Below the pieces are notes generated by a model that had not been told where the DNA came from, searched no databases, and saw only the letters and a list, made by a program, of their open reading frames with translations. A DNA stretch of 64,000 bases from Thermodesulfobacterium sp. TA1 (GTDB lineage: Bacteria > Desulfobacterota > Thermodesulfobacteria > Thermodesulfobacteriales > Thermodesulfobacteriaceae), in NCBI RefSeq assembly GCF_008630935.1, contig NZ_CP043908.1, positions 186,001-250,000 of the forward strand, written 5' to 3'. A program made the translations under genes and the position numbers. Below, one piece after another: positions 24,945-30,571 of this stretch (the first letter of the stretch is position 1; each line of letters opens with the position of its first letter).

Positions 24945-25029
24945 TGCCGGGGGCGGGAGTCGAACCCGCACGGGGGTGAACCCCAGTGGATTTTGAGTCC
25001 ACCGCGTCTGCCAATTCCGCCACCCCGGC
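24945..25029 (-). tRNA. tRNA-Leu(CAA)
   Basis: The reverse strand folds as a class II tRNA. The acceptor GCCGGGG pairs with CCCCGGC, and the discriminator is A. The D arm is GGCGGAATTGGCAGACGC. The anticodon stem GTGGA/TCCAC holds the loop CTCAAAA, anticodon CAA. A long variable arm (TGGGGTTCACCCCCGT) and the TGCGGGTTCGACTCCCGC T arm follow. CCA is not encoded. It reads UUG codons. Confidence 0.95.
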
Positions 25030-27641: not shown

Positions 27642-28037
27642 ATGAAGACGAATAGAAGAAGTGTTTTAAGACTTTTTTCTTTAGGGGTTTTAGGGTTTTT
27701 GACCTATGGGGTTTTTAAAAACCTTACCACTTTATCCTCTCCCCCTCCTAAGAAGGTTTGGATTTCCTTTGAAGAGATCGAAAAGGCTAAAGGGATCCTT
27801 TTTAAGGATAGTTTTATTATTTTAAAAACCGAGGGAGAGGTTCGGGTTTTTTCTAGAAGATGTCCACATTTAGGCTGTTTGCTTAACTATTCTTCTGAAG
27901 AAAGCTTGATTGTTTGTCCGTGTCATCAGAGCAAGTTTAACCTAAAAGGAAAATTTCTTTCAGGTCCTGCTAAAAAAGATCTTCAAACCTATAATTTTAG
28001 GCTTAACTCTAAGGGTTTAGAGGTTGAGGTTATTTAA
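27642..28037 (+). CDS. Rieske [2Fe-2S] protein with twin-arginine signal
   Basis: 131 residues. A twin-arginine-like signal anchor (NRRSVLRLFSLGVLGFLTYG) precedes a Rieske domain with C74-P-H76-L-G-C79 and C92-P-C94-H95-QSKF, the two Cys/two His cluster ligands. It takes electrons from quinol in bc-type complexes and would lie on the periplasmic face. The gene overlaps the cytochrome b gene by 14 nt. Tat genes lie at 53-54 kb. Confidence 0.93.
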   Translation: MKTNRRSVLRLFSLGVLGFLTYGVFKNLTTLSSPPPKKVWISFEEIEKAKGILFKDSFIILKTEGEVRVFSRRCPHLGCLLNYSSEESLIVCPCHQSKFNLKGKFLSGPAKKDLQTYNFRLNSKGLEVEVI

Positions 28038-28884
28038 CCAGGATCGTTGTTCTAAAATAAATCTTTTTATAGCTAACCTTTCTTTGATAAGCCTTTTAAT
28101 CTCGATTTTATCAGGTATAGTAGTAAGCTACCATTATTTTTACACCGACCCACTCTATAGTGTAATCAGGTTAGAAGCTACAGTCCCTTTTGGCAGATTT
28201 TTTAGAAATCTTCATTATTTTTCTTCTCAGATAGCTTTGGTATCCACCTTCTTTCATATGATAGACAGCCTTTTAAAGGGATGGCATCATAGAAAAAATT
28301 TTATCTCTTGGTTTTTTTTGGTTATAAGCTTTGTGGTCCTTCTTTTTTTAGTTTTTACCGGATATGTCATCAGGTTTGATGAAGTAGGAAAACTTGCAGG
28401 CAATATAGCAGAAAATCTTTGCTTAAGTATACCTTGGATAGGTAGTTTCCTAAGAGACCTAATTTTTCCTATCTCTAAAGGAGGTCTTTATAGAGTTTAT
28501 TTAGCACATATCTATGGTTCTTTTCTCTTGGCTATCGGACTTTTTGTCTGGCATACCTCTCTAAAAAGGATTTTTAGTTTAGCTTATGTGCCTTATCTTT
28601 ATTTAAACCTTATTTTATCTTTATTTTTATATATGCCTCTTGAAACCGAGAAAGGAAAGTTCTTGGTTACTGGACCTTGGTTTTTCTTAGGAGCTCAAGG
28701 CCTTTTAAAATTCTTCCCTCCTTTATCGGTCCTTGGTTTCCTTTTTTTGGCGTTGATTTTAGTTATTTTTTTAGGATTTAAACCTTTAAGAAGGTTTAAT
28801 CCCTGGATGATGATTATCTTGATTTTATGGAGTATGGTTTACCTTATCTTTAGCCTTCTCATCTACAGAGATGCCAATTTTTAA
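28024..28884 (+). CDS. Cytochrome b of a Rieske/cytochrome b complex
   Basis: 286 residues with about seven to eight membrane helices. The haem ligand pairs are H64/H78 (14 apart) and H162/H177 (15 apart), the second spacing being cytochrome b6-like. The C-terminal part resembles subunit IV, but the quinol-site PEWY is replaced by GPWF (LVTGPWFFLGAQGLLKFFPP). The start is a TTG overlapping the Rieske end. It would oxidise menaquinol and pass electrons to the Rieske centre and two b haems. Confidence 0.88.
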   Translation: MRLFNQDRCSKINLFIANLSLISLLISILSGIVVSYHYFYTDPLYSVIRLEATVPFGRFFRNLHYFSSQIALVSTFFHMIDSLLKGWHHRKNFISWFFLVISFVVLLFLVFTGYVIRFDEVGKLAGNIAENLCLSIPWIGSFLRDLIFPISKGGLYRVYLAHIYGSFLLAIGLFVWHTSLKRIFSLAYVPYLYLNLILSLFLYMPLETEKGKFLVTGPWFFLGAQGLLKFFPPLSVLGFLFLALILVIFLGFKPLRRFNPWMMIILILWSMVYLIFSLLIYRDANF

Positions 28885-30571
28885 AAAATTTTTAAAAACG
28901 AAAACCTTTTGGTTTTTAGCCGGTTTAATCTTTTTGATGGTTTTATATTATAAGGAAACCCATAGAGAAAAAAAAGAACCTTTTAGGTTAACCTCAGGGG
29001 AAGTAGAGTTATGTGTAGCCTGTCATCAAGAGGTGGTCCCAGAAAAGGTTCACGAGAAAAAAATTCTCGGCTGCGCTTATTGTCATTTAGGAAATCCTTA
29101 TACCTTAGATTTTAAAGAAGCCCATAAAAGACTAATAAAAAATCCAGGAGACTTAAGGTATGCCCACCTCACTTGCGGTCAACCAGGCTGCCATCCTACA
29201 GAGATAAATCAAGTTAAAAACTCACTTATGGCTACCAACCACGGGATGATAAGACGGTTGCTTGAGGTTTTTGAAGAAAAAGAGATTTTATCTCTGTATC
29301 CTAACCTAACCGTAGAAAAACTTTACCAAAAAGAGGTTTATTATAAGACCCGAAATAGTTTAGGATTAGACTATTATAAAAAGCTTTGTGGTAGCTGCCA
29401 TCTTTGGTTAGAAAAAGGAAAACTTCCTTATTTTTTAAAGGAAAAAGGAGGCGGTTGCACTGCTTGTCATTTAGTAAAACCTGAGAAGGAAAATAATTCG
29501 CAAAAACTACATCCTAAGCTTGTAAAGTATCCTCCTATGGAAAACTGCGTGCGGTGCCATAACCGTAGTGGAAGGATAGGGTTTACTTATCAGGGACTTT
29601 ATGAAAACGAACAAGGAGGTATTGGGGACACGGTTTGGATTGATGGAAGGTTGTTAACCCGGGTTTCTCCTGATGTGCATTTTGAAAAAGGCTTAGCTTG
29701 TATAGACTGCCATACCAAAGAAGAAGTTATGGGAGATGGAAATTTTTATGAAAACCTACACCAAGCCTTAGAGGTAACTTGTGAAACCTGTCATGATGGA
29801 ACCGGGATTACCAAAAAAGGAAGGAGGCTTAAAAATTTTAAGAAAAAGGGCTCCCAAGTGTTTTTAGAAACCAAAGAAAAAAGTTCGTTGCTTTTAATAA
29901 AAAAGCCGGTTAAACCTTGTAGAATTTATTATCATAGGCGTTTAACCTGTGTTAGTTGTCATGCTAAGCATATTCCAGATTGCTATGGTTGCCATATAAA
30001 GTATGACCCAAGGGATACTCATTTAGATAAAGTTTTGGCTAAAGAAACCAAAGGACTTTGGATTGAGCATGAGTCTTATCGAAGGCTTACTTCTCCTACT
30101 TTAGCTGTAGAGGGCAATCAAACCATAGTTACCGTTACCCCTGGTTGACAAGACTTTATTACCATCCTCTCAGAAAAAGGAGAGGTAAAAAAAGAGATTA
30201 AAAGCCTTTCTTTTGCTAAACTTAACCCTCACAGCACCGATAAAAAAGGGCGTTCTTGTAGAAGTTGTCATCAAGACCCCAAGACCTTAGGTTTAGGATA
30301 CGGGAAGGTGGTTAAGGGAAAAAACGGATTAGAGGTGATCAACTTAGAACAACCTTTTGTTAAGTCTCCTAAGGTTTGTCTTTCTCAAATGGTTAATTTA
30401 AACGGAACCACTTTGGTAAAGTTTTCTCGGTCTGGGTTGCGCCCGTTTAACCAAGAAGAACTTAAGAGGATCTTAAGAGTGGGTTTTTGCTTGAAATGCC
30501 ATCAAGAAAATGACGTCATATTTAAAAACTGGCCTCCTAAGAAAACCTGCCCTTATGGAAGCAATTTCTAA
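28871..30571 (+). CDS. Multihaem cytochrome c (12 haem motifs) with an in-frame TGA
   Basis: An N-terminal membrane anchor (KTFWFLAGLIFLMVLYY) is followed by haem motifs CVACH, CAYCH, CGQPGCH (CX4CH), CGSCH, CTACH, CVRCH, CIDCH, CETCH, CVSCH and CYGCH. Then a TGA at 30146-30148 stops the frame after 425 residues. Without changing frame it continues for 140 codons with CRSCH and CLKCH and ends at 30571. The TGA may be a nonsense mutation (TGG to TGA), selenocysteine or a sequencing error. It overlaps cytochrome b by 14 nt and would be the periplasmic electron acceptor of the Rieske/b complex. Confidence 0.8.

Follow-up and report, generated by a model that had tools for sequence, protein, structure and literature searches.

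Does the TGA that stands inside a multihaem cytochrome gene of Thermodesulfobacterium sp. TA1 end the protein, or is it read as an amino acid? The gene lies in a stretch of 64,000 nucleotides (contig NZ_CP043908.1, positions 186,001 to 250,000; hereafter the window, to which positions refer unless another locus is named), and a preliminary description of it had left four explanations side by side: a recent nonsense mutation, a read error, read-through and selenocysteine. Our comparison indicates that the UGA is almost certainly decoded as selenocysteine (Sec426), a reading based on the conserved UGA, the exchange between Sec and Cys among relatives, a hairpin behind the codon, the decoding machinery and selection before as well as after the UGA.

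28871-30571, + strand: 12-haem c-type cytochrome with one predicted selenocysteine, 566 aa (translation, haem motifs, AlphaFold2 model, 36 aligned relatives)
30146-30148, + strand: UGA codon, predicted selenocysteine 426 in the motif T-P-G-U-Q-D-F (same codon TGA in 28/28 Sec-type loci, Cys in 11 others)
30149-30568, + strand: coding sequence 3' of the UGA, containing haem motifs 11 and 12 (30257-30271, 30488-30502), under constraint equal to that of the part before the UGA

Results

Conservation of the TGA codon

Translation bore out the earlier account of the gene. The TGA at 30146-30148 is the sole interruption of the frame 28871-30571, 140 codons remain open downstream of it, and reading through it gives a product of 566 residues with 12 haem motifs, ten upstream of the TGA and two downstream, of which 11 are CxxCH and one is Cx4CH (CGQPGCH, 29174-29194). 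An open stretch of at least 140 codons behind a long open reading frame is not rare by itself (6/59 in the window), but at least two CxxCH motifs within a stretch of 140 codons are rare (15 of 3636 stretches). The N-terminal membrane helix at about residues 11-30 would anchor the cytochrome in the membrane, and the AlphaFold2 model has a mean pLDDT of 78.6. An ordinary cytochrome gene could have come to look like this through a recent nonsense mutation or a sequencing error, being then a pseudogene or carrying a wrong base, since TGC, TGT or TGG turns into TGA by one base and a lone genome cannot tell such cases apart.

The phylum-wide comparison supplied what a lone genome could not. TGA occupied the identical codon in 28 distinct loci including that of the window; each of the 27 other Sec-type relatives, which are 41-77% identical to the window protein, had one TGA only, placed at precisely this codon, and the conservation spans several genera, families and orders. 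Within the genus, all six loci with a full gene, the window's included, had one in-frame stop, and it was TGA (6/6). The contig scan yielded a sole locus, the orthologue of Thermodesulfobacterium thermophilum DSM 1276 at 76% identity, which has the UGA as well (L071). That relatives share the codon is decisive against a chance origin of the read-open frame, and the same change cannot recur by chance in 27 other loci. Because the TGA is kept across genera, families and orders, we reject the nonsense mutation, the read error and plain read-through that the preliminary description had considered.

In the remaining 11 close relatives the aligned residue was Cys, and in none was it Trp or any other residue. 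This alignment had been proposed beforehand as a test, with Cys favoring selenocysteine and Trp a mutation, and its outcome lies on the side of Cys. In the surrounding motif (P-G, then Sec or Cys, then Q-D), P424, G425, Q427 and D428 were invariant in 37/37 aligned orthologues, and so was H454. Paralogues at a much greater distance, a true ExtM among them (1069 bits, cut-off 800), likewise had Cys at the aligned site. When a maximum-likelihood tree was built with the Sec/Cys site masked, the Sec carriers formed one supported clade with one Cys carrier nested in it, for which the simplest reading is that Sec arose once and was later replaced by Cys, also once. The Cys orthologue inside the Sec clade (L090:1261-3099) has a weak hairpin and is likely a Sec-to-Cys reversion. 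The gene is patchily distributed within the genus: eight of the 14 same-genus genomes, some of them incomplete, gave short matches only, without a cytochrome orthologue (G002, G003, G005, G006, G007, G009, G011 and G012), and selA was present in all six tested of these eight.

Selection on either side of the codon was compared with the nearest orthologue, at locus L011; NG86 dS is saturated past the nearest relatives. The part before the TGA showed an amino acid identity of 0.81, with dN 0.12 and dS 2.56, and the part after it an identity of 0.79, with dN 0.14 and dS 1.47. By these rates, the downstream part is under purifying selection as protein. Such normal constraint on either side of the TGA, together with the recurrence of the codon in 27 other loci, makes a damaged gene or a wrong base extremely improbable, and the cytochrome gene, judged from the alignments, is intact.

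A hairpin behind the codon

The hairpin CCTCTC-8-GAGAGG that had been noticed 17 nt after the TGA was recovered at the same place.

30166-30185, + strand: putative bacterial SECIS hairpin, 6-bp stem CCTCTC/GAGAGG, 8-nt loop AGAAAAAG (-8.2 kcal/mol, p = 0.007, fits the bSECIS constraints)

The published bSECIS model (PMC13188914) describes a loop of 3-9 nt with G in the first two loop positions, a stem of 4-16 bp, a distance from UGA to loop of 16-37 nt and a minimum free energy of at most -7.5 kcal/mol. The window hairpin agrees with it in each respect, having a loop of 8 nt with G at position 2, a stem of 6 bp, a loop that begins 23 nt past the UGA and an energy of -8.2 kcal/mol. It had been doubted earlier because its loop is devoid of the usual GGU-type apex. 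GGU is indeed absent, and so is GG/GU, the most frequent loop pattern, but the objection does not hold, as the loop A-G-AAAAAG has the required G (bSECIS, PMC13188914 Fig. 2A). An Rfam scan of the region gave no match to a SECIS family, only sub-threshold chance matches.

We then asked how the hairpins compare with 1000 synonymous versions of the peptide's coding sequence, drawn with the gene's own codon usage. Against this null, the window hairpin had p = 0.007, the Sec genes had a mean z of -2.3, with 16 of the 28 at p<0.05 and the hairpins of the other 12 individually above it, and the Cys genes a mean z of +0.2, with 0/11 at p<0.05; the two groups differed with a Mann-Whitney p of 5e-5, with the caveat that the sequences are related by descent. 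In eight relatives that align in one register, compensatory changes on both sides of the stem were seen at three of the six pairs, and sliding the partner strand made the pairing collapse.

Selenocysteine machinery

The complete 1.83-Mb genome encodes selA (612 bits), selB (399 bits), tRNA-Sec (80 bits) and selD (343 bits), and selD carries an in-frame TGA of its own; behind it stands a hairpin with a GTT loop that begins 20 nt downstream. The search for sel genes suggested earlier thus found selA, selB, selC (tRNA-Sec) and selD as well, and with the Cys counterparts these genes strongly support selenocysteine. Decoding of the UGA would be directed by the hairpin at 30166-30185 together with the genome's own SelA, SelB, tRNA-Sec and SelD. 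We detected selA in 49/49 genomes tested, in Sec and Cys carriers alike; the gene is necessary, yet its co-occurrence has no discriminating power here. In the window, a tRNA-like match at 24946-25029 (- strand), between a flavin reductase and a YebC gene, scored 43.5 bits with the tRNA-Sec model, which is below the cut-off, and is probably a tRNA for Ser or Leu with a long arm.

Of the three stop codons, UGA is the leakiest in bacteria. The TGA could on this ground be a stop that is read through or misread at a low level, for example by tRNA-Trp, to give a short form with 10 haems and a long form with 12, and it fits this idea that motifs 1-10 precede the UGA and that Sec decoding generally competes with termination. 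However, the residue exchanged for the UGA is always Cys and not Trp, selA is present in every genome tested, and SECIS-type hairpins stand behind the codon in the TGA genes only, so that we regard a leaky stop as very improbable. Even under selenocysteine decoding a short form may exist beside the Sec form, because decoding competes with termination and ten motifs are already made before the UGA.

Gene neighborhood

The cytochrome is the last gene of a three-gene operon, behind a Rieske gene and a cytochrome b gene.

27642-28037, + strand: Rieske [2Fe-2S] protein gene, 131 aa, first of the operon (PF00355 50.3 bits, cut-off 20.3)
28024-28884, + strand: cytochrome b gene, 286 aa, overlapping both neighbors (PF00033 46.5 bits, cut-off 27.2)

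The best NCBIfam match of the cytochrome b is ExtP (NF040969) at 78.8 bits, under the cut-off of 290. The same arrangement, with Rieske first, cytochrome b second and cytochrome c third, was found in all five same-genus relatives that have an orthologue, as well as in several further genera of the taxonomic order and at one more distant Sec locus (L088). Judging from this conserved gene order, the three proteins likely form a bc-type quinol-oxidizing complex whose outlet has 12 haems, an architecture proposed earlier for the Geobacter cluster that contains GSU2935 (PMC2825233). Electrons of such a complex would leave through the membrane-anchored, periplasmic 12-haem cytochrome, which is probably its outlet.

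In several relatives the Rieske and cytochrome b genes are absent beside the cytochrome. Among the more distant relatives the neighbors vary, and no common partner was found in them beyond Rieske/cytochrome b, which part of them have; the cytochrome may therefore also work with other partners. In a sister genus, the open reading frame after the Sec cytochrome gene (L092:5905-9044, G111) has an N-terminus that looks CydA-like (cytochrome bd oxidase) by eye, which suggests that the cytochrome has another electron partner there.

Discussion

The proposed selenocysteine places selenium where electrons appear to leave a Rieske/cytochrome b complex, and the interest centers on what it does there beside twelve haems. 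Only six invariant His residues lie outside the haem motifs for 12 haems, which means that some haems are bound by other residues or by less conserved ones, or else have a site left open. Sec426 is a candidate haem ligand or catalytic residue. It would be a reactive residue next to one haem, acting in redox chemistry or substrate binding, at which the cytochrome would reduce or oxidize a partner; a compound of sulfur or selenium is one possibility. In TsdA, the Cys that ligates the haem of the active site also reacts with the sulfur substrate (PMC5146829). Sec-ligated haem is reported from engineered P450s only, according to one review (PMC11273360). That Sec426 is a sixth, reversible axial ligand, so that a terminal reductase connected to the bc-type complex would have in its active site a natural haem c with selenolate ligation, is a speculative proposal that we consider unlikely.

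The cytochrome might be a reductase of selenite/tellurite or of sulfur oxyanions fed by Rieske/cytochrome b, instead of a pure conduit, which we hold to be a tentative and somewhat unlikely function. Its best NCBIfam relative is ExtM, of a Geobacter selenite/tellurite operon, and the behavior of the Cys in TsdA offers an analogy; however, our literature search found no activity for ExtM itself, the phenotype in PMC5877670 being that of the porin ExtI, and genes for a porin, a rhodanese and ExtKL were not found among the upstream neighbors scanned. As to structure, Foldseek returned no match at E <= 0.001 for the full model and no significant match for the Sec-bearing domain. A second look gave as its sole match the Shewanella octahaem cytochrome 1sp3, which would suit an oxyanion reductase, but its Z of 7.8 (rmsd 4.4 over 256 residues) is within the range of chance arrangements.

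The cytochrome appears to represent a new selenoprotein family, new in the sense that it was not found in the literature searched, in the 2026 catalogue (PMC13188914) or in NCBIfam release 20. The catalogue holds ExtKL and the octahaem TIGR04315 as its only cytochromes, and our literature search, with subscription papers and supplementary tables outside its scope, found no paper that describes this family. Because the family appears to be absent from both the catalogue and NCBIfam release 20, the cytochrome is probably annotated as truncated or split in many genomes of Thermodesulfobacteriota. Plasmid and phage collections gave no match.

Among the known systems, ExtM (GSU2935) is the nearest. 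It too has 12 haems, is homologous over most of its length and shares its gene cluster with Rieske and cytochrome b; it has Cys at the aligned site (T-P-G-C-Q in L077-L079) where the window protein would have Sec, and its operon differs from that of the window, which lacks ExtKL, ExtN and porin genes and runs Rieske - cytochrome b - cytochrome c. With 310.7 bits against the curated ExtM cut-off of 800 (NF040943), the cytochrome is, by this score, related to Geobacter ExtM at a distance, below the family threshold, and not a member. The Cys at the same site in ExtM points to Cys/Sec as the functional residue of the ExtM group, which has a presumed role in the respiration of metals and of selenite/tellurite. 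A 10-haem ExtN-type cytochrome at L078:3612-4856 (G164) scored 639 bits with NF040968, named for the ExtO iron-sulfur subunit, and 632 with the ExtN model, so that NF040968 was apparently derived from ExtN proteins.

ExtKL (GSU2937-2936) is a known predicted Sec cytochrome of the same phylum, multihaem, c-type and with one UGA-encoded Sec, and one could ask whether the window cytochrome simply belongs to it, the more so as ext clusters also hold Rieske and cytochrome b genes (PMC5877670, PMC2825233) and both are Sec multihaem cytochromes of Thermodesulfobacteriota. The chance of this is practically negligible: the ExtKL model NF040886 (cut-off 250 bits) matched neither the protein at E up to 1 nor anything in the genome, ExtKL has five haems with its Sec in A-G-H-x-I-P-D-G-U-P-T-P rather than in P-G-U-Q-D, and in sister genomes it is a separate gene beside the Sec cytochrome gene. 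The Sec octahaem tetrathionate reductase family TIGR04315, listed from GenBank annotation (PMC13188914), is likewise a multihaem cytochrome with Sec, and our model may weakly resemble the octahaem 1sp3, at the chance-range Z given above; it has eight haems, unlike the 12 here, and its profile did not match the protein. As in the cytochrome bc and b6f complexes, Rieske and cytochrome b genes adjoin a c-type cytochrome gene in one operon, but the cytochrome b is short (286 aa, the cytochrome b6-like region) and the c subunit would be a 12-haem selenoprotein.
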